Part shown: positions 150-14,297 of the stretch, piece after piece
Layout: each line of letters starts with the position of its first letter
Position numbering within the stretch: the stretch's first letter is position 1
From: an uncultured Dongia sp.
Lineage (GTDB): Bacteria; Pseudomonadota; Alphaproteobacteria; Dongiales; Dongiaceae
DNA length: 64,000 nucleotides
NCBI RefSeq assembly: GCF_936916975.1
Contig: NZ_CAKZGO010000003.1
Span: 1 to 64,000, forward strand
Reading direction: 5' to 3'
Made by a program: the position numbers and the translations under genes
Notes under the pieces: generated by a model
The model's database searches: none
What the model was told of the DNA's origin: nothing
What the model saw: only the letters and a program-made list of their open reading frames with translations

Positions 150-1478
150 TCACTTGATATAGCCGGCGCGGGTCATTTCACGCTCGACTGCAGCCTGTGC
201 TGCGGCAAGCGCCTCGTCGACTGTCATGTTGCCGGAGAGGGCAGCGGCGAACTGCTGACCCACGGCTGTGCCAAGGCCCTGGAATTCAGGGATGGCGGCG
301 TATTGCACGCCGACATAGGGCACCGGCTTCACGGTCGGCTTGTCCGGATCGGCCGAGTTGATCGAGTCGATCGTCGGCTTGGCAAACGGGGCAGCCTTCA
401 GATATTCCGGGTTGCTGTAGAGCGAGGTGCGGGTGCCCGGCGGTACGTTCGCCCAGCCTTCCTTGGAAGCGACGAGCTCGGTATAGGCCTTGCTGGTTGC
501 CCAGGCGATGAACTTCTCCGCCGCTTCGACCTTCTGCGAGCCAGCCGGAATGGCGAGGCTCCAGGCCCACAGCCAGTTGGCGTTCTTGCCGAGGCCCTTA
601 TTGGGCGCCAGCGCGAAGCCGACCTTGTCGGCAACCTTGGATTCCTTCGGGTTGGTCACGAAGGAAGCAGCCACCGTGGCATCGATCCACATGCCGCATT
701 TGCCGGCGTTGAACAGCGCGAGGTTTTCGTTGAAGCCGTTGGAGCTGGCACCCGGAGGACCGGATTCATTCATCAGATTGACGTAGGTCGTGAGCGTGTC
801 TTTCCATTCCGGGCTGTCGAACTGCGGATGCCACTGCTCGTCGAACCAGCGCGCGCCGAAGGAGTTCGACATGGCGGTCAGGAACGCCATGTTCTCGCCC
901 CAGCCGGCCTTGCCACGCAGGCACACGCCATAGGTTTCGGTCGATTTGTCGGTCATCTTCTTCGCCGCATCGACGATGAAGTCCCAGGTGGGCGCATCCG
1001 GCATCTTGAGGCCGGCCTTTTCCATGAGGTCGGTGCGGTACATGACCATCGAGCTCTCGCCGTAGAACGGTGCGGCATAGAGCTTGCCGTCGACCGAGAG
1101 GGCGGCGCGGATCTTGGGCAGCAGATCGTCGACGTCATAATCGGGCCCTAGATTGTCGAGCGGCACCAGCCATTCCTTGCCGGCCCAGATCGGCACTTCA
1201 TAGGTGCCGATGGTCAGCACGTCGAACTGGCCGCCCTTGGTCGCGATATCGGTCGTGACCTTCTGGCGGAGCACGTTCTCCTCCAGCGTCACCCATTTCA
1301 CGGAGATGTCGGGATTGGCCTTGGTGAATTCATCGGTCAGACCCTGCATGCGGATCATGTCGCCGTTGTTCACGGTGGCGATGGTGAGCGTGGTGTCGGC
1401 AAAGGCCGTGCTGGTCGCTACCAGCGAGGCGGCACCCATCAGGGCGCCCAGAATCATTTTCTTAGGCAGCTTGTTCAT
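150..1478 (-). CDS. Polyol (sorbitol/mannitol-type) ABC transporter substrate-binding protein
   Basis: A 442-residue periplasmic family 1 extracellular solute-binding protein, the usual length for SmoE/MtlE-like sorbitol/mannitol receptors. Residues 1-27 are a Sec signal peptide (basic KLPKK, hydrophobic core, cut near AFA). The mature part begins with the TLTIATVNNGDM strand typical of the family. The ATG follows a GGAGG site 8 nt upstream. It is the third gene of a leftward group after the HAD phosphatase and SorC regulator, the order seen in alphaproteobacterial smo operons. The permease, ATPase and dehydrogenase genes that should follow are missing because the window ends. An operator-like pair lies 25-57 bp upstream of the start. 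Polyol specificity is inferred from similarity and neighbours. Confidence 0.85.
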   Translation of the reverse strand: MNKLPKKMILGALMGAASLVATSTAFADTTLTIATVNNGDMIRMQGLTDEFTKANPDISVKWVTLEENVLRQKVTTDIATKGGQFDVLTIGTYEVPIWAGKEWLVPLDNLGPDYDVDDLLPKIRAALSVDGKLYAAPFYGESSMVMYRTDLMEKAGLKMPDAPTWDFIVDAAKKMTDKSTETYGVCLRGKAGWGENMAFLTAMSNSFGARWFDEQWHPQFDSPEWKDTLTTYVNLMNESGPPGASSNGFNENLALFNAGKCGMWIDATVAASFVTNPKESKVADKVGFALAPNKGLGKNANWLWAWSLAIPAGSQKVEAAEKFIAWATSKAYTELVASKEGWANVPPGTRTSLYSNPEYLKAAPFAKPTIDSINSADPDKPTVKPVPYVGVQYAAIPEFQGLGTAVGQQFAAALSGNMTVDEALAAAQAAVEREMTRAGYIK

Positions 1479-1502
1479 TATGTATCCTCCCAGAGCCTAT
1501 CG

Positions 1503-1535
1503 TGAGCATTTGCCCCGATATTGAGCATACGCTCA
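1503..1535. promoter_or_regulatory. Tandem operator-like repeats upstream of the polyol-binding protein
   Basis: TGAGCATACGCTCA at 1522-1535 is a perfect inverted repeat (TGAGC, 4-nt spacer, GCTCA). A degenerate copy, TGAGCATTTGCCCC, starts exactly 19 bp earlier at 1503. The same motif pair with the same 19-bp step occurs upstream of the HAD gene at 3299-3331. The likely binder is the SorC-family regulator encoded between the two sites. That assignment is inferred from position and repetition. Confidence 0.6.
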
Positions 1536-1609
1536 CATCAAGACATGGCCTTGTCAATGCAGAATCGATTTTGCAGCGCAGCAAGCGGCGCTGTTTTCTG
1601 CGAACAGGC

Positions 1610-2563
1610 TTAACGCTGGAGGAGCTGCTTGGCGGTCGCTTCGTCGGTGATCAGGCCGTTGAGCAGGCGGCCCTTGAGGGCGGCGCGAATGGCCGTGATC
1701 TTGGCCGGCCCGAGGGCCGCCCCCACGGTCAGGGTCTGGGCCGGCACTCGGTGGGGCACCGATGTGACGCGGAGATTGCTGGCGCCCTCGATCACCCGTC
1801 CTTCGGCGTCGAAGGCATAGGCCGTGATCTCCCCCACCGCACCGAGGCGCATGAGTTCGAGGAGTTCTTCCCGGGTGATGAAGCCATCGACATGGAGCTG
1901 GGCGCCCTGGTCGATCTGGCCGATGCCGACCAGGCGCAGATCGGCATTCTCGGCGATGGTGCGCACGCGCGTGACGGCGGCGATGCGCAGCAATTGTTCG
2001 CGTTCCGCTTCCGAGGAGACGAAGACCGGCAAGGGCATCGGATAATGCCGCGCCTTGGTGAGGTCGGCCAGGCGCGCCACCGTATCGAAGAAGCTCGCCG
2101 AACCGTCGGGCGAGATGTTGCCGACCAGCGAGACGACCTGATGGTTGGGGCAATCCATGGGGGCGATCTGCTCGACCGCGGCGCGCATCACGCGGCCGGT
2201 ACCAATGGCGATGATGGTGGGTTTTTCCGCGCGCAGAGTCTGCTCCAGCAAGGCGGCGGCACGTTCAGCGAGACCAGCCACATTGCCGGGGTTTGCCGGA
2301 TCAGTCGGCGCCACTTCGCAATAGCGTAGATCGAACATATCCTTCAGGCGCTTTGCCAATTCCATGCACGCAGCGATAGGATGTTCCAGCCGGAACGTGA
2401 TCAGTCGTTCGGAAAGACACAGCGAAACCAAGCGTTGCGCCGTTGCGCGCGACACGCTCAGCTTCTTGGCGATCTCGTCCTGGGTGTGGCCGGCGATGTA
2501 ATACAGCCAACCTGCGCGAGCGGCATCGTCGAGACGTGATTTGTCATTGTCGCTGGCTGCCAT
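1610..2563 (-). CDS. SorC-family sugar-responsive transcriptional regulator
   Basis: A 317-residue DNA-binding regulator. The N-terminal helix-turn-helix (about residues 15-55, containing HTQDEIAKKLSVSRATAQRL) is followed by a SorC-type phosphosugar-binding domain with the IAIGTGRVMRA and VVSLVGN strands. Proteins of this family sense a sugar or polyol phosphate and control the adjacent transport operon. A TTG at 2575 overlaps the preceding gene. I chose the ATG at 2563 because it sits 4 nt past the stop of the HAD gene with AAGG just upstream, implying translational coupling. It lies between the HAD gene and the binding-protein gene on the same strand. The repeated operator motifs at 1503-1535 and 3299-3331 are probably its targets. 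Confidence 0.86.
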   Translation of the reverse strand: MAASDNDKSRLDDAARAGWLYYIAGHTQDEIAKKLSVSRATAQRLVSLCLSERLITFRLEHPIAACMELAKRLKDMFDLRYCEVAPTDPANPGNVAGLAERAAALLEQTLRAEKPTIIAIGTGRVMRAAVEQIAPMDCPNHQVVSLVGNISPDGSASFFDTVARLADLTKARHYPMPLPVFVSSEAEREQLLRIAAVTRVRTIAENADLRLVGIGQIDQGAQLHVDGFITREELLELMRLGAVGEITAYAFDAEGRVIEGASNLRVTSVPHRVPAQTLTVGAALGPAKITAIRAALKGRLLNGLITDEATAKQLLQR

Positions 2564-2567
2564 GGCC

Positions 2568-3245
2568 TTAGCCAACGCTCGGTTGCAGCGCCAGGGCCAG
2601 CTCGATGTCGATCATGCGCTGGAACACGCGATCGGCGCCGGCAGCGCGCAACAGCGCGTCGCCGTCGCGGCCTGCATAGTGGCTGCCACCGACAAACCCC
2701 CATACCGTCATGCCCGCGGCCTTTCCGGCTTCCACGCCACTGATACTATCCTCAATCACCAGGCTGCGCTGCGGCGCCGCTTTCATCCGGTCAGCCGCCA
2801 GCAGGAACAGATCCGGCGCCGGTTTTGCGTGCGTCACCAACCCGGCGGTAAAGACGCGCTCCTCGAAGTAGGGGGAAAGCCCTGCGAGATTCAAGGAAAA
2901 ATTGACCCGGTCGAGATCGCTGGAAGATGCCAGGCAATAGGCGCCGGGCAATCGCTGCAGCAGGTTCTCGACATCCGGGATGGCCAGCAGGTTCTCCTCG
3001 AACGCCGCCCGCATATGCTGGCGCAGCTCGTGCACGAAGGAGTCCGGCATCGTCCGCTGCAGCGTCGCCTGATAGTGGCGTGACACTTCGTCGATGCTGC
3101 GGCCGAGGAAACGCTGCATCACCGCGGCAACGTCCATTGCGATGCCGTGACGCGCCAGCTGCTGGTGCAGGCAGGTGCAGGCCAGCACCTCGCTGTCGAT
3201 CAGCACGCCGTCGCAGTCAAAAATAATGAGGTCGAAATCTGCCAT
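2568..3245 (-). CDS. HAD-superfamily phosphatase/phosphomutase-like hydrolase
   Basis: A 225-residue haloacid-dehalogenase-type enzyme of the beta-phosphoglucomutase/phosphatase group. Motif I is FDCDGVLIDSE near the N terminus, with both Asp residues. Motif II lies in YCLASSSD, motif III is the Lys in HAKPAPDLFLLA, and motif IV is VIEDSISGVEAG. The all-helical cap lies between motifs I and II. In smo-type operons such an enzyme precedes the regulator and may act on sugar or polyol phosphates; the substrate here is unknown. An ATG at 3263 is an alternative start; neither start has a clear ribosome-binding site. It ends 4 nt before the SorC start. The paired operator-like repeats at 3299-3331 lie upstream, so this is probably the first gene of the transcript. 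Confidence 0.83.
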   Translation of the reverse strand: MADFDLIIFDCDGVLIDSEVLACTCLHQQLARHGIAMDVAAVMQRFLGRSIDEVSRHYQATLQRTMPDSFVHELRQHMRAAFEENLLAIPDVENLLQRLPGAYCLASSSDLDRVNFSLNLAGLSPYFEERVFTAGLVTHAKPAPDLFLLAADRMKAAPQRSLVIEDSISGVEAGKAAGMTVWGFVGGSHYAGRDGDALLRAAGADRVFQRMIDIELALALQPSVG

Positions 3246-3298
3246 GGGGATGGTCAGTTCCATCAAAGAAAGGCTGGAGCGGCGCTGTGTCGATCATT

Positions 3299-3331
3299 AG
3301 AGCATACGCCCAATATATGAGCAATAACTCG
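3299..3331. promoter_or_regulatory. Tandem operator-like repeats upstream of the HAD gene
   Basis: AGAGCATACGCCCA at 3299-3312 matches 12 of 14 bases of the perfect site at 1522-1535. A weaker copy, TGAGCAATAACTCG, begins 19 bp later at 3318. The 19-bp step equals that of the other pair, so a regulator dimer binding twice on nearly the same face of the helix is plausible. SorC binding is an inference. Confidence 0.5.
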
Positions 3332-3361
3332 ACCGGCTGCCGGTGAGTCTCGAATGCCAGC

Positions 3362-4528
3362 CTACCAGCCGGTATAGACGTCGAGGCCGCGCTTGCGGAT
3401 CTGGCCCGCGACGACAACACGCTGGATTTCCGAGGTGCCTTCCCAGATGCGGTCGACACGGATGTCGCGGTAGAGGCGCTCGACCGGGTTTTCGCGCATA
3501 TAGCCGCGCCCGCCCAGTACCTGCAGCGCCTTGTCGATCACTCGCCCCGCCATCTCCGAGCAGTGAAGCTTCAAGGCACTGGCATGGGCGTGGATCGTCT
3601 TGCGGTCGGCGCCACGGTCAATTTCCCAGGCAACTCGATAGAGCATCGATTTCGCGGCGAACAGCTCTACCGCCATATCGGCCAGCATGAACTCGACACC
3701 CTGGAAGTCGCGGATCGGCCGGTTGAACTGATGACGGTTGGTCGCATAATCATTGGCGATTTCTGCGGCACGCGTCGCAGCACCCAAGGCGTGCGCGGAA
3801 ATCTGCAGCCGCGCTTCCACGAACCAATCCTTGGTCAGTTCCAGCCCTTGGCCCACCGCGCCCAGCATCTTGTCATCGCTGAGTTCGGTTTCCTCGAAGC
3901 GTAGCTCGGCATGATCGAACGCGAAGTTGTGCATGAATTTGGGCGAACGCAGATGCACCATGTTATTCACGGGTTTGTCGACCAGGAACAGGGTCGGCTT
4001 GTCGGGATCGTCGTCGACATGAGCGTGCACGATGATGAAATCGGCCGCGTTATAGGAGGTGACAAACCACTTCTCGCCGGAGAGATACCATTTGCCGCCC
4101 TTCTGGATGGCCTTGGTCTTCACACGGCGCGGATCGGAGCCGGCCTCCGGCTCGGTGATCGCGAAGCAGCCGCGGCGCTCGCCCTGGATCGAGGAGACGA
4201 GATACTCTTTCTTCTGTGCGGCGGTGCCGAATTTAAGACTGACCGGCGGTCGCCAGACGCAGCTCCACAGACCGTTGGTGACGCGGCCAAGCTGCTCCTC
4301 GATCACCGTCTGCTCGACCATGGTAAGGCCGAGGCCGCCATATTCCTTCGTGTGGTTGATCCCCGCCAGGCCCCAATCGCGCACTGCCTGCCGCACGGCG
4401 GCGCGGCGCTCCATCGGCAATTCGCCATGCTCATCAGTGATGATTTCGAGCGGCATCAGGACCTGCTCGCAGAAGGCGCGGCCCTTGGCTGCCAGCTCTT
4501 TTTCCCGGGGGCTGAGGTCGAGATCCAT
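3362..4528 (-). CDS. Acyl-CoA dehydrogenase
   Basis: A 388-residue FAD-dependent acyl-CoA dehydrogenase, full length for the family, catalysing alpha,beta-desaturation of an acyl-CoA. The three family regions are visible: N-terminal helical domain, middle beta domain (FAITEPEAGSDPRR, then WYLSGEKWFVTS), and C-terminal helical domain with QVLGGRGYMRENPVER. The presumed catalytic base is Glu363 in RIWEGTSEIQR. The acyl substrate cannot be read from the sequence. It lies 121 bp downstream of the galacturonate operon on the same strand and beside the polyol operon, without an obvious functional link to either. No electron-transfer flavoprotein or CoA ligase gene is nearby. The start ATG at 4528 is unambiguous. 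Confidence 0.9.
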   Translation of the reverse strand: MDLDLSPREKELAAKGRAFCEQVLMPLEIITDEHGELPMERRAAVRQAVRDWGLAGINHTKEYGGLGLTMVEQTVIEEQLGRVTNGLWSCVWRPPVSLKFGTAAQKKEYLVSSIQGERRGCFAITEPEAGSDPRRVKTKAIQKGGKWYLSGEKWFVTSYNAADFIIVHAHVDDDPDKPTLFLVDKPVNNMVHLRSPKFMHNFAFDHAELRFEETELSDDKMLGAVGQGLELTKDWFVEARLQISAHALGAATRAAEIANDYATNRHQFNRPIRDFQGVEFMLADMAVELFAAKSMLYRVAWEIDRGADRKTIHAHASALKLHCSEMAGRVIDKALQVLGGRGYMRENPVERLYRDIRVDRIWEGTSEIQRVVVAGQIRKRGLDVYTGW

Positions 4529-4649: not shown

Positions 4650-5507
4650 TCAGGACGCCTTAAATCCATAGAGTTGGGCGGGATTGTCGACCAGGATCTT
4701 CCGCTGCACGGCCTCATCCGGGGCCCAATCCAGCAGCCGGTCGAGCATATGGGCGTCATCCGGATAGCCGATCTTTTCCGCCAAGGCATGCGGCCAGTTG
4801 CTGCCCCAGATCACACGGTCCGGCGCCGCCTGGGTGAGAATCCGCATCAAACGACCGACATCTTCGAAAGCCGGACCGCCCTCCTTCGAAAACTCATAGA
4901 AGCCGGCGATCTTGACCCAGCAGCGACCTGTTTCGACCAGGCGCAGCAGCGTCTTGAAGGCAGCGCTATCCGGAGCCACCGGCTCCATGAAGCGGCCGCA
5001 ATGGTCGATCACATAATTGATCGGCAGGCCGCGCAGCTGCGCCTCATGTTCCGGCAAGGTGCAGCCATCGAGCTGGACGATGGCGCTCCAGCCGAAGGGC
5101 TGAACCCGTGCCGTCATCTCGTCCATATGCTCCCAGGTGAGCGTCCCACCGAAGAGATTCATGAAGCGGATACCGACCGCGCCATCCCTGGTCAGCTGGT
5201 CCAATTCGACATCGTCGATGCCCGGCTTCACGACGACCACGCCGCGCGCCGCGTCGCCCAGCGCCTTGACACCTGCCATGGTTTGCCGGTTGTCGGCGCC
5301 ATAGGCATTGGGCTGCACCACGACAGCGCGGTCGATGCCGAGCCATTTCATGACCTGGCGATAATCCTCGACCGAGGCATCCGGCGGGTTGAGCGTATTG
5401 GGCAGCGCCGGATATTGCCGGCTGTAGAAATGCATATGCGTGTCGCAGGTCCCGGCCGGCGCCTTCAATCTGGGTGGCTTGCCGGTCAGCGTTCGTACCA
5501 AAGTCAT
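4650..5507 (-). CDS. gli: D-galactarolactone isomerase-like amidohydrolase (COG3618)
   Basis: A 285-residue TIM-barrel hydrolase of the amidohydrolase superfamily. The metal-binding HxH is in CDTHMHFY near residue 25. Other marks are VIDHCGRF and the terminal RVIWGSNWPHAL strand with its conserved Asn and Trp. It closely recalls D-galactarolactone isomerase of Agrobacterium (Atu3138 type), which converts the 1,4-lactone to the 1,5-lactone of galactarate. The neighbours support this: it is the last gene of a leftward operon with udh, kdgD and an enolase-superfamily enzyme, starting 4 nt after the previous stop. Related 2-pyrone-4,6-dicarboxylate lactonases are the main alternative, but the context favours galactarolactone. 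Confidence 0.8.
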   Translation of the reverse strand: MTLVRTLTGKPPRLKAPAGTCDTHMHFYSRQYPALPNTLNPPDASVEDYRQVMKWLGIDRAVVVQPNAYGADNRQTMAGVKALGDAARGVVVVKPGIDDVELDQLTRDGAVGIRFMNLFGGTLTWEHMDEMTARVQPFGWSAIVQLDGCTLPEHEAQLRGLPINYVIDHCGRFMEPVAPDSAAFKTLLRLVETGRCWVKIAGFYEFSKEGGPAFEDVGRLMRILTQAAPDRVIWGSNWPHALAEKIGYPDDAHMLDRLLDWAPDEAVQRKILVDNPAQLYGFKAS

Positions 5508-5511
5508 CTGC

Positions 5512-6606
5512 TCAATCCGTCACGGTGAAATTCTGCAAGGCGGTGGGGTCCGGCTCGAAACCAAGGCCGGGTGCGTCGGGGATGGCAACCATGCCGTTCT
5601 GCGGCAGGGGATAGTCGCGGCCGACCCAGCTCCTGGGCTGGATATAAAGATGTTCCAGCATACCAAGCTCCGGCAGGAAGGCTGCCAGCTGCAGACTGGC
5701 CCACCAGCCGGGACCGGAGTACGGACAATGCGGCATCAGGACCTTGCCGGCGGCCTTGGTCATCTCCGCCACCTTGATGAATTCGAGGATGCCGCCGATC
5801 TTGGTGACGCTGGGCTGCACGAAGGTCACCGCGGGCACGATCCCTTTGAACTGGAAAGCGGTGCAGGCGTTCTCGCCGGTCGCCAGCGCCACGCCGAATT
5901 TCTTTTCCAGAACCGCCAGCGTCTCGAAATCCTCCGGCGGAAAGATCGGTTCTTCGACCCAATAGAGGTCGAGCGCCTTCATGCGCGGCAGCATGTCTTC
6001 ACATTGCGCGAGACTCCAATTGCAATTGACGTCGGTGGTGAGGCGCAAGTCCTTGCCGCCGGCATCGCGCGCCGCTGTGATCGTATCCAGGGCGATCTCA
6101 TGCAGCTTCACGTCGGTATAGCCGGCATGCAATGCCGTCTCAGTGACATGGGCCACCGGCAGAACTTCTCCATAGCGCACCAGGCTGGCATAGGCGGGCA
6201 CCGAAGCGCGCTTTCGGCCGCCCAGCAGCCGGGCGAGCGAAACACCTTCGCGCTTTGCGGCAATGTCCCACAGGGCCATCTCGATGCCGGACCAGGCAAA
6301 GATCGTAATGCCATAGCGTCCCTGGATATGAAGTTGCCGTTGCATTTCCCGGCTCAGCGCTGCGATATCACGGCAATCCTGGCCGATGAGGCGCGGCGTG
6401 AACATGTCACGCACGGCCGCGCGTGTCGCTGTGCGGCAGGCATAGGCGAAGCTTTCGCCCCAGCCGACGATGCCGTCATCCGTCTCGACCTTGACCAGCA
6501 GGGTATCGCGCTGCGTCCAGCCGCGCGGCTTGGTGCGTGGCCCGTCATAAAAATCATCGAACGGGATGTCGAGGAGGATGGTGTCGATGCGGGCGATCTT
6601 GCTCAT
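5512..6606 (-). CDS. Enolase-superfamily enzyme (mandelate racemase/muconate lactonizing group), candidate galactarolactone cycloisomerase
   Basis: A 364-residue capping-domain plus barrel protein. The metal ligands are visible as Asp192 (TTDVNCNW), Glu218 (YWVEEPIF) and Glu245 (ATGENACTA). Catalytic positions are atypical. The second barrel strand reads VKLHE (Lys167-x-His169 rather than Lys-x-Lys). The Asp of the His-Asp dyad is Ser266 (QPSVTKIGG), while the His partner is His293 (MPHCPYSG). Its place between udh and gli suggests it opens galactaro- or glucaro-lactone to a 3-deoxy-2-keto-hexarate, as Gci does in Agrobacterium. The active-site differences make a distinct reaction, such as an acid-sugar dehydratase, possible. 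Gene gaps are 2 nt upstream (to udh) and 4 nt downstream (to gli). Confidence 0.72.
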   Translation of the reverse strand: MSKIARIDTILLDIPFDDFYDGPRTKPRGWTQRDTLLVKVETDDGIVGWGESFAYACRTATRAAVRDMFTPRLIGQDCRDIAALSREMQRQLHIQGRYGITIFAWSGIEMALWDIAAKREGVSLARLLGGRKRASVPAYASLVRYGEVLPVAHVTETALHAGYTDVKLHEIALDTITAARDAGGKDLRLTTDVNCNWSLAQCEDMLPRMKALDLYWVEEPIFPPEDFETLAVLEKKFGVALATGENACTAFQFKGIVPAVTFVQPSVTKIGGILEFIKVAEMTKAAGKVLMPHCPYSGPGWWASLQLAAFLPELGMLEHLYIQPRSWVGRDYPLPQNGMVAIPDAPGLGFEPDPTALQNFTVTD

Positions 6607-6608
6607 GG

Positions 6609-7427
6609 TCAGTCTCGCTGCTTGAGACGCTCGAAATCCCCTTGGAAACCCTGCGAGCAGAACGGTCCGCCCTGGAAATAGTCGCCGACCGGATCTGCTG
6701 GTTTCGCAACCTGCCCTTCCAGTGCCATCTGAACGAAGTCCTCCGACTCACCGCTGGGCTTATAGCCATAGCGATAGGCATTGGCATTGTCCCACCAGCC
6801 GCGGACGTTGTCGGAAACGCCGTAGAAGATCTCATAATTGAGGTCGGGATGTTCGACACCGATCCGGATCAGCTGCACGAGGTCTTCGGGCTTCAGCCAG
6901 ATCGACAGATGTCGCAGGTCAAGCGCCTGTTCGTTGATATTGCCGATGCGCAGGCACAGCACGCGCAGGCCGAACTTATGGGCATAGAACGCCGCCAGCC
7001 CCTCGCCGAAGGTCTTGCTGACGCCATAGAGCGTATCCGGCAAGGCGGTGGCTTCAGTGTTGATGCGCTGGTCGCGCGGATAGAAGCCGACCACATGATT
7101 GCTGGAGGCGAACACCACGCGTTTCACGCCCTGGCGCCTGGCAGCTTCGAACAGATTATAGGTGCCGACGATGTTGGCGTTGAGGATGGTGTCCCATGGC
7201 CCTTCGACAGAGAAGGCACCGAAATGGATGATGGCATCCATGCCTTCCGCCATGCGCTCGACGGCGGCAGCGTCGGCAAGGTCGGCCGCGACAAATTCCT
7301 CGTCCGACCGCAGATCCGTTGGCGGCTGCAGATCGGACAAGCGAAGCTGCGGATAGTGCGCGGGGAGCAGCTTGCGCAGCCGTGTGCCGACACCGCCGCT
7401 GGCCCCGGTCAGGAGAACGCGTGTCAT
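6609..7427 (-). CDS. udh: Uronate dehydrogenase (NAD-dependent)
   Basis: A 272-residue extended short-chain dehydrogenase that oxidises D-galacturonate or D-glucuronate to the aldarolactone with NAD+. The N-terminal Rossmann motif is TGASGGVG (residues 7-14). The catalytic Tyr134-x3-Lys138 lies in YGVSK, and the Ser of VFASSNHVVGFY completes the triad. Length and sequence style match Agrobacterium Udh. I chose the ATG at 7427 because GAGGGGG sits 5 nt before it; the longer reading from 7454 would overlap kdgD. It lies between kdgD (13-nt gap) and the enolase-family gene (2-nt gap), as expected for the oxidative uronate pathway. Confidence 0.88.
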   Translation of the reverse strand: MTRVLLTGASGGVGTRLRKLLPAHYPQLRLSDLQPPTDLRSDEEFVAADLADAAAVERMAEGMDAIIHFGAFSVEGPWDTILNANIVGTYNLFEAARRQGVKRVVFASSNHVVGFYPRDQRINTEATALPDTLYGVSKTFGEGLAAFYAHKFGLRVLCLRIGNINEQALDLRHLSIWLKPEDLVQLIRIGVEHPDLNYEIFYGVSDNVRGWWDNANAYRYGYKPSGESEDFVQMALEGQVAKPADPVGDYFQGGPFCSQGFQGDFERLKQRD

Positions 7428-7440
7428 GACATCCCCCTCG

Positions 7441-8352
7441 TTATTGCGGCCCAAGCTTGTCGATCAGCACCTTCAGGGCAGCGCGCTCCTCGGCATTGCA
7501 ATCGACCAATGGCGTCCGCACGGGGCCGGCCGAACGGCCGACAAGATCGGCGCCGGCCTTGACGATGCTGACGGCATAGCCAGCGCGTTTGTTGCGGATC
7601 GCCGCATAGGGCATGAAGAACGTGTCGAGCAGATGGTTGACGGTCGCCACGTCGGCGTCGGTCACCGCACGGTAGAAGTCCATCGCCATCTTGGGCACGA
7701 AATTGAACACCGCCGAGGAATAGACCGGCACACCCATCGCCTTGTAGGGCGAGGCGAAGAACTCGGCCGTGGGCAGGCCGCCGAGATAGGCGAAGCGATT
7801 GCCCATGCGCCGGCGCACCGAGACCATCAGTTCCAGATCGCCGATACCGTCCTTGAAGCCGATAAGATTCGGACAGACAGCCGCAAGCTTTTCCAGTGCA
7901 TCGGGACCGAGGCGGCAAACGTTGCGATTGTAGACGATGACGCCGATTTTGACCGCGGCACAGATCGCCGCCACATGGCGCGAAATGCCTTCGGAATCAG
8001 CCTCGACCAGATAATGCGGCAGTACCAGTAGGCCCGCGGCTCCGGCCTTCTCCGCTTCGCGCGCATAGGCGATGGCTTGGCGCGTGCCGAAACCGACACC
8101 CGCGATGATCGGGACCTGGCCCTTGCAGGTCTCGACCGCCGTGCGGATGACGGTCGGATATTCGTCGGGGGCAAGCGAGAACAGCTCGCCCGTGCCACCC
8201 GCCGCGAATAAAGCGGTGGCGCCATAGGGCATCAGCCATTCCAGGCGCTTGCGGTAGCCCTTGGGCTCGAATTCACCCGCGCTATCAAAATCCGTCACCG
8301 GAAAGGACAACAGGCCGGCGCCGAGGATCGATTTCAGTTCTTCTGGACGCAT
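7441..8352 (-). CDS. kdgD: 5-dehydro-4-deoxy-D-glucarate dehydratase (decarboxylating)
   Basis: A 303-residue class I aldolase-type enzyme of the DapA superfamily that converts 3-deoxy-2-keto-hexarate to 2-oxoglutarate semialdehyde, CO2 and water. Lys167 in IGFKDGIG is the Schiff-base residue, Tyr141 in VIVYNRNV is the conserved tyrosine, and GGTGEL is the carboxylate-binding loop. I chose the ATG at 8352 (MRPEELKS) because AAGGA lies 6 nt upstream and the resulting 303 residues equal the usual KdgD length; an in-frame ATG lies 3 nt earlier. It is the first catabolic gene after the FadR-type regulator. The next enzyme, 2-oxoglutarate semialdehyde dehydrogenase, is absent from this cluster. 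Confidence 0.9.
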
Positions 8353-8403
8353 CATTCTTCCTTCACCCGATGAGTATTTTCTGGCGTTGCCGGTACATGG
8401 CAA

Positions 8404-9126
8404 TCAGTGACCGTCGTTCTCGGCCATGGCGAGGCGCAGCCGCTCGCGCGAATTGCTGAGATGGAGCCGCATGGCGGAGCGTGCCGCCTCGGTATCCTGG
8501 CGGTGGATCGCATGATAGATGTCTTCATGCTCCCGGTTGACGCGGCGCAGATATTCGGTCCGGTCCGGGGCGAAGTAGCGGAATGTCTGCAACCGTGCCC
8601 GCGGGATCAGCAGCGAGCCCAGATAGCTGAAAAGATGCGTGAAATGCGGATTGCCGGTGGCTTCGGCAATCGTGCGGTGGAAATCGAAATCCGGCGACAC
8701 AGCATCTTCGGATTTATCGATCGCGAGCGCCATCCTGTCGAGCGCTGCGCGCATCGCCACCAGATGCTCATCGTTCCGGCGCAAGGCGGCCAGCGCCGCT
8801 GCATCGGATTCCAGCGCGATGCGCAGTTCAAGGACCGAGATCACGTCCTTGATCAGGTTGAGGCTGGTACCCTCGATGCGAAAGGATGGGTTGGCGCCGG
8901 ACTGCAGCACAAAGGCGCCGACACCCTGCTGCGATGTGGCCAAGCCCGCCGCCTTCAGGCTGGAAATCGCCTCGCGCACCACGGTGCGGCTCACCGAGAA
9001 CTCCTCGATCAACTCCTGTTCGGTCGGCAAGCGATCGCCGGGCTTCAACTGACCGCTGTGAATACGTTCGGTCAGCGCCTTGACCACTTGTGAGGTCAGT
9101 GTTTGACGCTGGGGCAGGGCCGCCAC
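8404..9126 (-). CDS. FadR-subfamily GntR transcriptional regulator of the uronate operon
   Basis: A 240-residue repressor-type protein. The winged helix (about residues 10-75) has LKPGDRLPTEQELIEEFSVSRTVVREAI, followed by an all-helical FCD ligand domain. The metal-binding pattern is visible: Asp/His in DFDFHRTIAEATGN, His in NREHEDIYHAI and His in MRLHLSNSRERL. The start is a GTG with AAGGAA 5 nt upstream. It lies 51 nt before kdgD in the same direction and diverges from the TRAP importer, so it probably controls both transcripts in response to an aldarate or uronate. An inverted repeat at 9356-9374 is a good candidate operator. Confidence 0.87.
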   Translation of the reverse strand: MAALPQRQTLTSQVVKALTERIHSGQLKPGDRLPTEQELIEEFSVSRTVVREAISSLKAAGLATSQQGVGAFVLQSGANPSFRIEGTSLNLIKDVISVLELRIALESDAAALAALRRNDEHLVAMRAALDRMALAIDKSEDAVSPDFDFHRTIAEATGNPHFTHLFSYLGSLLIPRARLQTFRYFAPDRTEYLRRVNREHEDIYHAIHRQDTEAARSAMRLHLSNSRERLRLAMAENDGH

Positions 9127-9374: not shown

Positions 9375-9448
9375 GTAAGGGAAACAACCCCAGAGATAAC
9401 ATGAGCGGCGATCTTCGAAATCGTCCGCCGACACAGGAGGAGATTGTC

Positions 9449-10423
9449 ATGAGCAAGCTGATTCCGATTCTCACCAGCGTGGCCATGGGCCTGGCCCTCA
9501 CCAGCCCGGCCTTTGCCAAAGAATTCCGCTCGTCGGATGTGCATCCGGATGACTACCCGACCGTCATGGCGGTCAAGAAGCTGGGCGAAATCATTGCGGA
9601 GCGCACTGGCGGCAAGCATTCCGTCAAAGTGTTCGGGCAGAGCGCACTGGGCTCCGAGAAGGACACAGTCGAGCAGGTGAAGCTCGGCGCCCTCGACATG
9701 GTCCGCGTCAACGTGGCGGCCTTCAACAATATCGTGCCGGAAACCATCGTCCCGGCCCTGCCCTTCCTGTTCAAGTCGAAGGAGCATATGAGGAAGACTC
9801 TCGACGGTCCGATCGGCGACGAAATCCTGAGTGCCTTGGAAGCACAAGGCTATATCGGCCTTGCCTTCTATGACAGCGGCTCGCGTTCCTTTTATACGGT
9901 CGAAAAACCCATCAAGACCGTGGCCGACATGAAAGGCCTGAAACTGCGCGTGCAGCAATCGGACCTCTGGGTCATGCTGATCGAACTGCTCGGCGGCAAC
10001 CCGACACCGCTCCCCTATGCCGAAGTCTACACCGCGCTGAAGACCGGTGTGGTCGACGGCGCGGAAAACAACTGGCCGTCCTATGAATCCTCGCATCATT
10101 ACGAAGTGGCGAAATTCTATAGCCTCACTGAACATTCGATGTCGCCGGAACTGTTGGTCTTCTCCAAGGCCGTGTGGGACACGCTGCCGAAGGAAGAGCA
10201 GGACATCATCCGCCAAGCCGCCAAGGAATCGGTCCCCTATATGCGCGAATTGTGGGACGCGCGTGAGGAACAGTCGCGCAAAGCCGTCGAAGCTGCCGGT
10301 GCCACCATCACCAGCGATGTCGACCGCGCGGCTTTCGCCGCCGCCGCCCAGCCGATCTATGAAAAGTTCGCTGGCGATCCCAAGCTGCAGGATTTGATCA
10401 AGCGCATCCAGGCGACGGAATAA
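9449..10423 (+). CDS. TRAP transporter substrate-binding protein (DctP family), probable uronate receptor
   Basis: A 324-residue periplasmic receptor. A Sec signal peptide (MSKLIPIL..., cut after PAFA) is followed by a mature DctP fold with KLGEIIAERTGGKHSVKVFG and LKLRVQQSD. The Arg of that second motif is the conserved carboxylate-binding residue of DctP proteins. The late motif EVYTALKTGVVDGAENNW is also characteristic. The ATG at 9449 has an AGGAGG site 8 nt before it; the longer reading from 9401 does not. It heads the dctPQM operon divergent from the uronate regulator, so the ligand is probably galacturonate or glucuronate. That is inference from context. Confidence 0.88.
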   Translation: MSKLIPILTSVAMGLALTSPAFAKEFRSSDVHPDDYPTVMAVKKLGEIIAERTGGKHSVKVFGQSALGSEKDTVEQVKLGALDMVRVNVAAFNNIVPETIVPALPFLFKSKEHMRKTLDGPIGDEILSALEAQGYIGLAFYDSGSRSFYTVEKPIKTVADMKGLKLRVQQSDLWVMLIELLGGNPTPLPYAEVYTALKTGVVDGAENNWPSYESSHHYEVAKFYSLTEHSMSPELLVFSKAVWDTLPKEEQDIIRQAAKESVPYMRELWDAREEQSRKAVEAAGATITSDVDRAAFAAAAQPIYEKFAGDPKLQDLIKRIQATE

Positions 10424-10449: not shown

Positions 10450-10950
10450 ATGTTGCGCTGGCTTTCACCACTCAACGCCTGGATTTCGCGGCTCTGCATG
10501 TATGTGGCGGTCGCAGGCCTGTTCAGCATCGTCGTTGTCGTTGCCTGGCAGGTCTTCGGCCGCTACGTGCTCAACAACACGCCCACCTGGGCGGAGAGTA
10601 TTGCGCTTGTACTGGTACTCTACGTCACCTTGCTGGGTGCTGCCGTCGGCGTGCGTGACGCGCGGCATATCGGGCTCGATTCTCTCATCATCTATCTCAT
10701 TCCGGAACAGCATCGCATCTGGTTCGAACTGACTTGCCATTTTCTGGTCGGCCTGTTTGGTGGCCTGATGATGTGGAACGGGGCGGTCCTCGCCAAATCG
10801 GTCATGCCCTACAAAATTCCCATCCTGGGCATTTCCGAAGGCATCAATCACATCCCGCTCGTTATCTCCGGGGTGCTCATCATGCTGTTCTCGCTGGAGC
10901 ATATCCTGGCGCGGATCCAAGACAAGAAAGTCGCCCCCTCTTGGCATTGA
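10450..10950 (+). CDS. TRAP transporter small permease (DctQ family)
   Basis: A 166-residue inner-membrane protein with four hydrophobic helices, the normal DctQ layout. The second segment begins LNNTPTWAESIALVLVLYVTLLGA, containing the conserved Trp-Ala-Glu of the family, followed by GVRDARHIGLDSLI. It pairs with the large permease to form the membrane part of a sodium-driven importer. The start is 26 nt after the binding-protein stop, and the end overlaps the large permease gene by 10 nt if that starts at the TTG at 10941. Confidence 0.9.
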   Translation: MLRWLSPLNAWISRLCMYVAVAGLFSIVVVVAWQVFGRYVLNNTPTWAESIALVLVLYVTLLGAAVGVRDARHIGLDSLIIYLIPEQHRIWFELTCHFLVGLFGGLMMWNGAVLAKSVMPYKIPILGISEGINHIPLVISGVLIMLFSLEHILARIQDKKVAPSWH

Positions 10951-12227
10951 TCATCCTGTGCGTCAGCTTCCTCATCCTGCTGCTGATCGGCGTGCCGGTG
11001 GCTTTTGCCATCGGCCTTTCCGCGGTCGCCACCATCTTCTATGAAGGCCTGCCGCTCGCCGTCGTGTTCCAGCGGATGAGCTCGGGCATGAACATCTTCT
11101 CGTTCCTGGCCATTCCTTTCTTCATCTTCGCCGGCGAGTTGATGCTCTATAGCGGGGTCGCCGAGCGCATCGTCACCTTCGCGCGCAATCTGGTCGGCCA
11201 TATCCGCGGCGGCCTCGGTATGTCCAACGTGGTGGCCTGTACGCTGTTCGGTGGTGTCTCCGGGTCGCCGGTCGCCGACGTCTCCGCCATGGGCTCGGTC
11301 ATGATCCCGATGATGAAGCGGGAGGGCTACGACGCCGACTATGCCGTCAACGTGACCACTCACGCTTCCCTGGTCGGCGCCTTGATGCCGACCAGCCACA
11401 ACATGATCATCTATGCGCTGGCGGCCGGCGGCAAAGTCTCCATCGCCGCCCTCATCCTGGCCGGACTGGTGCCCGCATTGCTGCTGACGGTCTGCATGCT
11501 GGTCGCGGCCTATCTGGTTGCCATCAAGCGCGGCTATCCCGCCGGCATCTTTCCGGGGTGGTTTCCCGTCCTGCAATCCTTCGCCGCCGCCATGCCGGGC
11601 CTCTTCGTCATCGTCATCATTATCGTCGGCATTCTGTCCGGCGCCTTTACCGCCACGGAATCGGCGGCAGTGGCCGTCATCTATTCCATCCTCCTTGGCC
11701 TCTTTCTCTATCGCTCCCTCAAGGTCGAGCATCTGCTGAAGGCTGCGGCGAAGGCGGTCAAGACCACCGGCATCGTGTTGCTGCTGATCGGCATCTCCAA
11801 TACCTTCGGCTACCTCATCAGTCTTTATGGCGTGGCGCAGTTGACGGCCGATGCGCTGTCACAGATATCGACCTCGCCTTGGGTTATCTTCCTGCTGGTC
11901 AACATCATCCTGTTTGTGCTCGGCACCTTCCTCGACATGGCCGCCACAATCCTCATCTGCACGCCAATCTTCCTGCCGATCTGCATGCAGTTCGGCATGG
12001 GGCCGGTGCAGTTCGGCATGCTGATGCTGATCAACTGCGCGCTCGGCCTCAACACGCCCCCGGTCGGCACCACGCAGTTCGTCGGCTGCGCCATCGGCGG
12101 CGTGTCGGTGGCCCATGTCATGCGCACCATTCTGCCCTTCTATGGGGCGCTGGTGGCGGCGCTGTTCCTGGTTACCTATGTGCCGAGCTTCTCCCTCGCC
12201 CTGCCGAACTTCCTGCTGGGCAACTGA
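10941..12227 (+). CDS. TRAP transporter large permease (DctM family)
   Basis: A 428-residue inner-membrane protein with about twelve hydrophobic segments, matching the usual DctM length of about 425. It carries family sequences such as FLAIPFFIFAGELM, GGVSGSPVADVSAMGSVMIPMM and LGLNTPPVGTTQF. The reading frame is open from 10734, but the protein should begin near LIILCVSFLILLL. The only start codons there are TTG at 10941 and 10947, and 10941 gives the standard length. Weak initiation by TTG inside the dctQ stop region implies translational coupling. It completes the uronate TRAP system. Confidence 0.87.
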   Translation: MALIILCVSFLILLLIGVPVAFAIGLSAVATIFYEGLPLAVVFQRMSSGMNIFSFLAIPFFIFAGELMLYSGVAERIVTFARNLVGHIRGGLGMSNVVACTLFGGVSGSPVADVSAMGSVMIPMMKREGYDADYAVNVTTHASLVGALMPTSHNMIIYALAAGGKVSIAALILAGLVPALLLTVCMLVAAYLVAIKRGYPAGIFPGWFPVLQSFAAAMPGLFVIVIIIVGILSGAFTATESAAVAVIYSILLGLFLYRSLKVEHLLKAAAKAVKTTGIVLLLIGISNTFGYLISLYGVAQLTADALSQISTSPWVIFLLVNIILFVLGTFLDMAATILICTPIFLPICMQFGMGPVQFGMLMLINCALGLNTPPVGTTQFVGCAIGGVSVAHVMRTILPFYGALVAALFLVTYVPSFSLALPNFLLGN

Positions 12228-12447: not shown

Positions 12448-13575
12448 ATGAGCAAACGGGAGAAGACAACTCAGATCGACCCATCGCGCCGCAAATTCCT
12501 CGGCGCAGCGGCCGCCGCCGGCGTAGGTGCCACGGCCCTTGCCGCGCCAAATGTGGCGCGCGCCCAAGATCCCATCACGATGAAGTGGCAGAGCACCTGG
12601 CCTGCCAAGGATATCTTCCACGAATACGCCCTGGATTTCGCCAGCAAGGTCAATTCGATGTCCGGCGGACGCCTGAAGATCGACGTGCTGCCGTCCGGTG
12701 CCGTGGTGAAGGCGTTCGATCTTCTCGATGCGGTGAGCAGTGGCACGCTGGATGGCGGCCACGGGGTCATCGCCTATTGGTACGGCAAGAACTCGGCGCT
12801 GGCGCTCTGGGGTTCGGGTCCCGCCTTCGGTATGGACCCGAACATGATGCTGTCCTGGCATTATTACGGCGGCGGCAAGGAACTGCAGCAGGAGGTCTAT
12901 GCGAGCCTCAACATGAACGTGGTCTCGTTCCTCTATGGGCCGATGCCGACGCAGCCTTTGGGCTGGTTCAAGAAGCCGGTCGCCAAGGTCGACGATCTGA
13001 AGGGGCTCAAATTCCGCACCGTAGGGCTCTCCATCGACGTGTTCACGGCGCTGGGTGCTGCCGTCAACGCCCTGCCCGGCGGCGAGATCGTGCCGGCGCT
13101 GGATCGTGGCCTGCTCGATGCGGCGGAGTTCAACAACGCCTCATCCGACAAGACGCTGGGCTTCCCGGACGTCTCGAAGATCTGCATGCTGCAGAGTTTC
13201 CATCAGTGCTCCGAGCAGTTCGAGATCCTGTTCAACAAGGCGAAATACGATGCGTTGCCGGAGGATATGCGGAGCATCATCACTCAGGCGGCGTCAGCCT
13301 CCTCCGCCGACATGTCCTGGAAGGCGATTGATCGCTATTCCAAGGACTATGAGGCGCTGAAGGCGGATGGCGTGAAGTTCTACAAGACGCCGGATGCGAT
13401 CCTGCAGGCCCAACTCGACGCGTGGAGCAAGATCATCGAAGCGAAGTCGGCTGAGAACGCGATGTTCAAGAAAGTTCTCGACTCGCAACGCGCCTATGCC
13501 GAGCGGACGGTGCGCTGGCAAAGTGACACGTTGGTCAATTTCCGCATGGCCTACAACCACTTCTTCAAAGCCTGA
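12448..13575 (+). CDS. TRAP transporter substrate-binding protein, Tat-exported (COG4663 type)
   Basis: A 375-residue periplasmic receptor of the mannitol/chloroaromatic-annotated TRAP group. Residues 14-19 (RRKFLG) form a twin-arginine motif followed by an Ala-rich hydrophobic core, so export should be folded and Tat-dependent, unlike the Sec-type DctP upstream. The mature protein contains MKWQSTWPAKD, GLKFRTVG with the conserved Arg, and GGEIVPALDRGLLDAAEF. A GGGAGG site precedes the ATG. The 220-bp gap before it (12228-12447) holds no gene. A strong stem-loop follows the gene before the next operon member. The ligand is unknown; relatives are reported for keto acids and other carboxylates. 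Confidence 0.87.
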   Translation: MSKREKTTQIDPSRRKFLGAAAAAGVGATALAAPNVARAQDPITMKWQSTWPAKDIFHEYALDFASKVNSMSGGRLKIDVLPSGAVVKAFDLLDAVSSGTLDGGHGVIAYWYGKNSALALWGSGPAFGMDPNMMLSWHYYGGGKELQQEVYASLNMNVVSFLYGPMPTQPLGWFKKPVAKVDDLKGLKFRTVGLSIDVFTALGAAVNALPGGEIVPALDRGLLDAAEFNNASSDKTLGFPDVSKICMLQSFHQCSEQFEILFNKAKYDALPEDMRSIITQAASASSADMSWKAIDRYSKDYEALKADGVKFYKTPDAILQAQLDAWSKIIEAKSAENAMFKKVLDSQRAYAERTVRWQSDTLVNFRMAYNHFFKA

Positions 13576-13594
13576 CGGGGCGAACGATGGCGAG

Positions 13595-13631
13595 GGGGAG
13601 CGGCACAATTGCCGCTCCCCTATTCTTTCTT
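13595..13631 (+). terminator. Stem-loop with U-rich tail after the TRAP binding-protein gene
   Basis: GGGGAGCGGCA (13595-13605) pairs perfectly with TGCCGCTCCCC (13610-13620) across a CAAT loop and is followed by TATTCTTTCTT. It has the form of an intrinsic terminator, yet it stands inside an operon between the receptor and the small permease. Partial termination or 3'-end protection would raise receptor levels above permease levels. Confidence 0.75.
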
Positions 13632-13658
13632 GGCGAATGGTTTGCGTAGGGAAGATTG

Positions 13659-14297
13659 ATGGGAAAAGCGCTCAAATTTATCGATTCACTCAGCACCTGG
13701 TCGGGCCGCGCCTGTGCCTGGGCGATCGTCGCCCTCACCCTCATGATCAGCTACGAGGTCTTCTCGCGCTATGCGCTGGGGGCGCCCCACGCCTGGGTGT
13801 ACGATGTCTCGGCCATGTTCTATGGCCTGCTGTTCATGATGGCCGGCGCCTATACGCTGGCCCATGGCGGGCATGTGCGTGGTGACGTGCTCTATGGCTT
13901 CTTCCCGGTGCGCCTGCAGGCAGCGATCGATCTCGTGCTCTATATTCTGTTCTTCGTGCCCGGCATCGTCGCCATGGTCTGGGCGGGCTGGATCTATGCC
14001 GGTGAGTCCTGGGCAATCAACGAGCATTCTTCGATCTCAGCGGACGGGCCGCCCATCTATCCCTTTAAAACCATCATCCCCGTGGCCGGCGCTCTATTGC
14101 TGTTGCAAGGGATTGTCGAGATGGCTCGCTGCTATCGCTGTCTTCAGGACGGTAAATGGCCACCCCGCGCCAGCGATGTCGAGGAGGTCGATGTCGAAAA
14201 GCTGAAGGAGATGGTGCATGTTCGCGACGAGGATATCGCGGCCCTCGACCGCTATGTGATCGACGACGCCGACAAGTCGGGCGGGCCAAAATCATGA
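13659..14297 (+). CDS. TRAP transporter small permease (DctQ family)
   Basis: A 212-residue DctQ-type membrane protein, longer than usual because of a charged C-terminal tail (about residues 165-212) rich in Glu, Asp and Lys that should be cytoplasmic. Four hydrophobic segments are visible, with GAPHAWVYDVSAMFYGLLFMMAGAY carrying the family aromatic motif and HGGHVRGDVLY after it. The ATG at 13659 follows AGGGAAG; a TTG just upstream at 13656 is less likely. It overlaps the large permease gene by 4 nt (ATGA). Confidence 0.87.
   Translation: MGKALKFIDSLSTWSGRACAWAIVALTLMISYEVFSRYALGAPHAWVYDVSAMFYGLLFMMAGAYTLAHGGHVRGDVLYGFFPVRLQAAIDLVLYILFFVPGIVAMVWAGWIYAGESWAINEHSSISADGPPIYPFKTIIPVAGALLLLQGIVEMARCYRCLQDGKWPPRASDVEEVDVEKLKEMVHVRDEDIAALDRYVIDDADKSGGPKS

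Follow-up and report, generated by a model that had tools for sequence, protein, structure and literature searches.

Much of what is understood of how one fold acquires new reactions is modelled on the enolase superfamily. In its mandelate racemase subgroup, the metal-ligand positions together with a first lysine form the machinery that makes an enediolate from a carboxylate, and the subgroup is further marked by a K-x-K motif on the second barrel strand and a His-Asp dyad (His on strand 7, Asp on strand 6); in mandelate racemase the second lysine is the usual (S)-side base and the seventh-strand histidine the (R)-side base. Function is often read from these residues, and here we describe a large clade in which a different set is fixed. 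The enzyme known from such a gene position is the galactarolactone cycloisomerase of Agrobacterium (Gci, EC 5.5.1.27; PDB 4ggb and 4hpn). As for GLI, an amidohydrolase encoded next to Gci, we take 4mup (titled amidohydrolase in its PDB record) to be the characterised representative; a 2014 paper on GLI reportedly identifies Asp248 as the hydrolytic base of LigI and explains isomerisation by the absence of this base from GLI. According to a Halomonas reconstruction, Udh, Gli, Gci and a UxuPQM transporter form one operon (PMC5507952), and another report likens the reaction of 3,6-anhydrogalactonate cycloisomerases to the Gci reaction (PMC9706016).

The window analysed in this study (the whole stretch of 64,000 nucleotides, from an uncultured Dongia sp.) contains an otherwise standard galacturonate cluster with an enolase-superfamily enzyme in the place of Gci (Table 1). 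The minus-strand order is GntR-type regulator, KdgD, uronate dehydrogenase (UDH), the enolase-superfamily enzyme and GLI, with the TRAP transporter diverging on the plus strand. The UDH gene ends 2 bases before the enzyme gene and the GLI gene starts 4 bases after it, so that the assignment of the enzyme to the Gci slot, made in the earlier note on this DNA, holds. A putative second TRAP transporter set, named by eye, lies directly beyond the first one (12448-16216, plus strand), and GLI is followed on the same strand by an acyl-CoA dehydrogenase-like gene (3362-4528), of which no match was found beside the cluster in 18 kb of G001 or of G015.

Table 1. Features of the galacturonate cluster and of the enzyme encoded in the Gci position
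Feature	Position	Strand	Basis
GLI-like amidohydrolase, Asn where LigI (4d8l) has Asp248	4650..5507	-	alignment
Enolase-superfamily enzyme, K-x-H-E / QPS clade; proposed galactarolactone cycloisomerase	5512..6606	-	homology, clade, predicted fold
His293, retained	5728..5730	-	conserved 75/75
Ser266, at the position of the Gci dyad Asp	5809..5811	-	conserved 74/75
Glu245, metal ligand by homology	5872..5874	-	conserved 75/75
Glu218, metal ligand by homology	5953..5955	-	conserved 75/75
Asp192, metal ligand by homology	6031..6033	-	conserved 75/75
Glu170, clade-specific	6097..6099	-	conserved 74/75
His169, replaces second Lys of K-x-K	6100..6102	-	conserved 75/75
Lys167, end of second barrel strand	6106..6108	-	conserved 75/75
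Capping-domain loop YDGPRTKPRGW	6517..6549	-	YxGPRxKxRGW in 12/12 GLI-linked members
Uronate dehydrogenase (UDH)	6609..7427	-	nearest solved relatives UDHs
KdgD, 5-dehydro-4-deoxyglucarate dehydratase	7441..8355	-	TIGR03249, 411.7 bits (curated cut-off 373.95)
GntR/FadR-type regulator	8404..9126	-	GntR-family models, all below cut-off among the matches listed; same place in relatives
TRAP transporter solute-binding protein, DctP type	9401..10423	+	above both cut-offs
DctM-type large permease of the TRAP transporter, identity assigned by eye	10842..12227	+	place conserved in relatives

The enzyme gene runs on the minus strand, which the earlier note had left unstated, from an ATG at 6606 to a stop at 5512 and encodes 364 aa, in agreement with the coordinates given there. 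The translation also places Lys167, His169, Ser266 and His293 exactly where that note had put them, and its statement that the Agrobacterium enzyme has the Asp is borne out by 4ggb, which aligns with K-x-K (CKIKIG), QPD and PHVWG.

Homologues were collected from three sources: a search of 143 genomes, 11 of which (own genome counted) had a match at 1e-60, a scan of named genomes that gave at least 80 loci from 592 relatives, and 12 of 774 matching plasmid records. Frames shorter than 250 aa (in one residue comparison) and five fragments or duplicates were left out before the counts. In the main tree (132 rows, 386 columns, quick search, catalytic columns kept in), whose long branches make deep placement unsure, a single branch with SH-aLRT support of 97 unites 74 K-x-H/Ser rows and one K-x-H/Asp row. 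K167, H169, D192, E218, E245, K269 and H293 are found in all 75 rows of this clade, S266 and E170 in 74 each, and K-x-H-E and QPS recur in all 13 further sequences fetched after that count. Since the residue set is conserved across the 75 members, both a single decayed gene and chance or sequencing error are ruled out. The same tree places the Gci rows in a K-x-K/Asp branch separate from the K-x-H clade, 4ggb and the enolase of an Agrobacterium bin (L089) grouping in a 6-row branch (99 SH-aLRT). On these sequences, the favoured reading is that the putatively altered acid/base set is a property of the whole clade, with no local loss. The sole Asp row, L065 (2149-3246; QPDVTK), is nested among Ser members. 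K-x-H by itself was ruled out as a clade marker, because L069 and L083, outside the clade, share it. In G122, a genome of the same class as that of the window, the gene is a near-copy of that of Nisaea denitrificans, which points to a probable alphaproteobacterial origin of the window.

A characterised subgroup with the same residues, whose existence would have spoken against the interpretation in the earlier note, was looked for in PDB and NCBIfam and not found. PDB sequence searches gave no clade-like chain by score: the best match to the enzyme was 3bjs with 136 bits, compared with 229 bits (36% identity) for L018, which is among the most distant clade members, and the clade therefore appears to have no solved structure in the PDB copy searched. 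Fourteen NCBIfam models match the enzyme and none reaches its cut-off (best 151.8 versus 311 bits). In a PDB short-peptide search QPS was absent from the five alignments, out of 29 matches, that were available, the only non-Asp case being QPA (3t4w), and such an active-site variant was not found in the portions of open-licence papers covered by our literature search.

The predicted model of the enzyme (pLDDT 95.6, pTM 0.94) has the two-domain (beta/alpha)8 barrel fold of the enolase superfamily, and a structure search aligned 987 of 999 chains at Z >= 8, the best 50 of the 999 all bearing titles of enolase-superfamily members or of putative isomerases and dehydratases. Among the matches listed, the Gci structure 4hpn comes first (Z 47.1 over 350 aligned residues, rmsd 1.7), but 3sjn ties with it at Z 47.0, and Gci is therefore not distinguished by fold. 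The three carboxylates at the metal-ligand positions of strands 3, 4 and 5 (D192, E218 and E245), present in 75/75 rows, are predicted to bind metal. Judged from the model, the fold of the enzyme is ordinary; its active-site set is unusual yet conserved.

Concerning the neighbouring genes, four solved relatives of the window UDH were found at E 1e-20, three of them titled uronate dehydrogenase (6mfh, 3rft, 3rfx) and the fourth NAD-dependent epimerase/dehydratase (3ay3), and the SSNH and YGxSK segments are kept (three alignments to solved relatives). The GLI-like protein scores 228 bits to 4mup versus 126 to LigI 4d8l, and its Asn237 aligns to LigI Asp248. An Asn at this position is found in all 12 GLIs that adjoin a K-x-H enzyme, in 4mup and in the GLIs of L080, L089, L098 and L178, while more distant GLI relatives (below about 40% identity) mostly have Asp. 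We also considered that this amidohydrolase might be a lactone hydrolase, as its first motif is HxH and that of 4mup QxH. This is not the lead reading, given the Asn and because HxH also occurs in Halomonas L080, in a GLI whose gene neighbour is a Gci of the K-x-K/Asp type.

Comparison across genomes (DISPLACEMENT) showed that GLI adjoins a K-x-K/Asp Gci in Halomonas L080, Agrobacterium bin L089 and Marinobacterium L098. In L080 the genes for KdgD, DctP, DctM, GLI, UDH and GntR surround an enolase that shares 71% identity with Gci 4ggb; L089 has the same gene complement around an enolase that shares 97%. Twelve genomes, from two bacterial families, encode the K-x-H enzyme beside GLI, namely four of the 17 genomes of the window's family (G000, which is the genome of the window, G001, G009 and G015) and eight of family f93; the GLIs of G001, G015 and G009 are 77-79% identical to that of the window. 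UDH adjoins the enzyme in 11 of these 12 genomes. The exception is G009, where UDH lies, together with KdgD, on another contig, UDH and the enzyme both being at contig ends. KdgD stands beside UDH in nine (G000, G001, G015, G217, G385, G402, G404, G405 and G406), and in G401 and G403 a regulator occupies its usual place and the K-x-H enzyme is kept. Family f93 has the K-x-H enzyme in 9 of 18 genomes, eight of them GLI-linked; that of the ninth (G108, L103) belongs to another branch, with no match to UDH, GLI or KdgD in 18 kb.

At the class level, a GLI relative was detected at 1e-40 in 76 of 385 genomes. Among the 28 new GLI loci retained from this search, two have the K-x-H enzyme alongside (L158 and L160, both of f93) and one a K-x-K/Asp Gci (L178); the other 25 gave no enolase match within about 1.5 kb. 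Within the window's family, G004 and G013 carry diverged UDHs with no enolase match in the 18 kb fetched, and in G010 (L117, 7558-9407) a third enolase type, 31% identical to the window enzyme, adjoins a diverged UDH. Two further loci differ in composition. L187 (7447-10038) comes from G308, which shares its genus with the GLI-linked genomes of f93, and has UDH, GLI, GntR and TRAP genes beside dnaA- and dnaN-like frames (by eye); across the whole genome, the best-scoring match to the K-x-H enzyme had only 30% identity, so that this enzyme is absent, and KdgD was not found at 1e-30. A joint loss of enzyme and KdgD, which G308 might suggest, is weakened by G401 and G403, which keep the enzyme without KdgD at the usual place. 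L189 of G137 (1206-3876) has a 2-hydroxyacid dehydrogenase-like frame (by eye) between GLI and UDH, with no enolase match on its 7.8 kb contig.

A more careful tree, built from 31 rows, unites the six GLI-linked enzymes known at first in a single clade (support 100/99), contained in a larger sub-clade of 20 rows (100/99) together with seven rows that have an adjoining UDH relative, 31-44% identical to the window UDH. Such a relative adjoins 7 of the 14 sub-clade rows outside the window's family and f93, compared with none of the 57 remaining clade rows, among which two UDH-like matches occur at a distance (L030, L058) and some contigs are short; as the sample is not random, the Fisher values of 2.6e-6 (0/57) or 1.9e-5 (1/57) serve only as a guide. 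The stretches examined around the seven UDH-linked rows gave no GLI or KdgD match, and their enzyme may take the 1,5-lactone or the open aldarate. Four of these seven, on plasmids (L130, L132, L134 and L138), combine, by annotation, UDH-like and K-x-H enzyme genes with RraA/dimethylmenaquinone methyltransferase and NTF2-like genes; YciI is present in three, aldehyde dehydrogenase in three, and often an IclR-type regulator, which looks like a different sugar-acid route. Over the whole clade, matches to the window UDH, GLI or KdgD lie near at most 16 of 75 rows, some of them weak or distant. The closest GLI-less relatives, L019, L020 (Nisaea), L021, L022 (Minwuia) and L102, have no match to any of the three, so the general function of the clade may be something else.

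The GLI-linked enzymes share a loop of the capping domain. A strict pattern, Y[DT]GPRxKxRGW, drawn from the six GLI-linked sequences first known, fits 6/6 of these rows and none of 71 other clade rows or 57 other enolase rows; in a later test it fitted four of six new GLI-linked rows and none of seven new unlinked ones, the two non-matching rows differing at one letter (A or E). The looser YxGPRxKxRGW, set after the fact, fits all 12. Loops of the N-terminal region usually close over the substrate in the enolase superfamily, and the basic residues of this one could hold the second carboxyl end of the substrate. In the model, this loop has low confidence (mean 62 for residues 21-30 of the enzyme), as might be seen for a mobile lid.

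A search for competing enzymes found no Gci orthologue in nine genomes of the window's family: the highest identity is 39%, from a match in G009 that is only partial, and in G000 the best-scoring one, on contig C23, reaches 34%, the window enzyme itself 36%. Another Gci elsewhere in these genomes was accordingly rejected. UxaC was not found in any of the eight genomes checked (found in 7 of 14 control genomes), and the GarD model gave matches in seven of eight, none above cut-off; our guess is that these are altronate-dehydratase relatives. The GarD-like paralogue of G000 (402 bits versus a cut-off of 731) could handle galactarate. Contig C23 of G000 also carries two tandem enolase-superfamily genes (L002/L007, 132745-134897), the first of which shows QPN and lacks both K-x-K and an aligned His on the seventh strand.

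We consider it probable, reading function from genomic context, that the gene encodes a non-orthologous galactarolactone cycloisomerase with another acid/base set. This is suggested by the spacing of 2 and 4 bases to UDH and GLI, the recurrence in 12 genomes, the GLI-like nature of the partner, the UDH link of the sub-clade, the fold match and the invariant metal-ligand positions, as well as by the lack of a visible rival (Gci orthologue, UxaC, or GarD above cut-off). Against it stand the scarcity of uronate genes across the clade, the seven UDH-linked members without GLI or KdgD, G308 without the enzyme, G401 and G403 without KdgD at its usual place, and the GarD-like paralogue of G000. The earlier note had left a choice between a different acid/base set and a replacement in the pathway by an enzyme of non-homologous function. 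The evidence favours both together: the replacement would have been made by a homologue, and non-orthologous displacement of Gci by a different enolase-superfamily clade is the favoured description.

In the proposed route, UDH would oxidise D-galacturonate (probably also D-glucuronate) to the 1,5-lactone, which GLI would convert to the 1,4-lactone. The enzyme would then hold the free carboxylate at Mg2+ through Asp192, Glu218 and Glu245, aided by Lys167, and the C5 proton would most likely be taken by His169, which replaces the second Lys found in other members. The leaving group would be the lactone's own carboxylate, which on chemical grounds should need little acid help, so that a weaker dyad might cost less than in a dehydratase; His293 could act without the Asp, and a full His-Asp dyad would not be essential. 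The carboxylate leaving group does not by itself explain the loss of the Asp, since true Gci keeps it. More tentatively, and with somewhat less than even confidence, we propose that the K-x-H-E/Ser clade is a mechanistically separate subgroup, with a second-strand His base, a dismantled dyad and a near-invariant Glu170 that may do some of the dyad's work, whose YxGPRxKxRGW branch was recruited as an independent galactarolactone cycloisomerase.

The same slot and the same product would also suit a galactarate/glucarate dehydratase acting on the open aldarate, the lactone opening spontaneously or through the neighbouring amidohydrolase and the same keto-acid passing to KdgD. We regard this as unlikely. 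Loss of water normally needs a general acid, usually supplied by the His-Asp dyad, which is here without its Asp, and the neighbour has the Asn of GLI instead of the Asp of LigI and should therefore isomerise the lactone, not open it. The UDH-linked plasmid relatives lack a GLI match, and at three of these loci an esterase or alpha/beta hydrolase gene lies at most two genes away, in keeping with a dehydratase. Dehydratases of acid sugars are numerous in the mandelate racemase subgroup (PMC7246345), and pathway variants with UxuL/UxuF lactonases are described (PMC6353982).

It is less likely still that the enzyme acts on another lactone or isomer of the pathway, GLI then serving a side branch; its substrate might be galactaro-1,5-lactone itself, or glucarolactones alone. 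The seven relatives beside UDH-like genes without a nearby GLI match would fit such a role, and UDH is presented as unspecific, making both lactones (PMC6353982), but each of the 12 enzymes that carry the YxGPRxKxRGW loop is encoded beside GLI, which suggests that this branch uses the 1,4-lactone. G000 does encode other enolase-superfamily proteins, and the clade mostly occurs in other contexts. Nevertheless, it is very improbable that the gene is a passenger of the cluster with an unrelated acid-sugar activity, and that a different enolase of the same genome is the true cycloisomerase, in view of the tight spacing, the same place in 12 genomes and the position of every other G000 enolase outside the 22-row branch holding Gci.

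If the cycloisomerase reading is correct, the galacturonate route has a second cycloisomerase. The clade is directly assayable, as one of its branches lies in a pathway with a nameable substrate and product, and an uncharacterised enzyme group thus probably has a testable role in the use of pectin sugars. The same route has been used in engineering the conversion of pectin sugars into chemicals (PMC6353982).

Among known systems, Agrobacterium Gci shares with the window enzyme the superfamily, the fold, the metal-ligand positions and the clustering of its gene with those of UDH, GLI and KdgD. The two are only 32% identical and fall in separate branches, so that the window enzyme is not an orthologue of 4ggb, and they differ in K-x-K versus K-x-H, in Asp versus Ser266, and in the loop after the second strand, which is longer in Gci. 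The 3,6-anhydrogalactonate cycloisomerases (5xd7, 5olc, SCO3480) belong to the same superfamily. Unlike the window enzyme with its K-x-H/Ser, SCO3480 has K164, K166, D270 and H297 (PMC9706016), and 5olc groups with the K-x-K/Asp rows, not with the clade of the window. The mandelate racemase subgroup shares the fold (1mdl and 1dtn, Z 43), the D/E/E ligand positions, the first Lys and the seventh-strand His; in the window enzyme the second Lys is missing (K167-x-H169) and His293 is present without the dyad Asp, for which Ser266 stands. Among engineered proteins, mandelate racemase D270N comes closest (1dtn and 1mra, by their titles only), and crystallisation of this mutant (1dtn, by title) indicates that a barrel without the dyad Asp still folds. 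Because the enzyme differs in clade, in K-x-K and in the dyad, it lies outside the Agrobacterium Gci family, and it is Gci-like by context.
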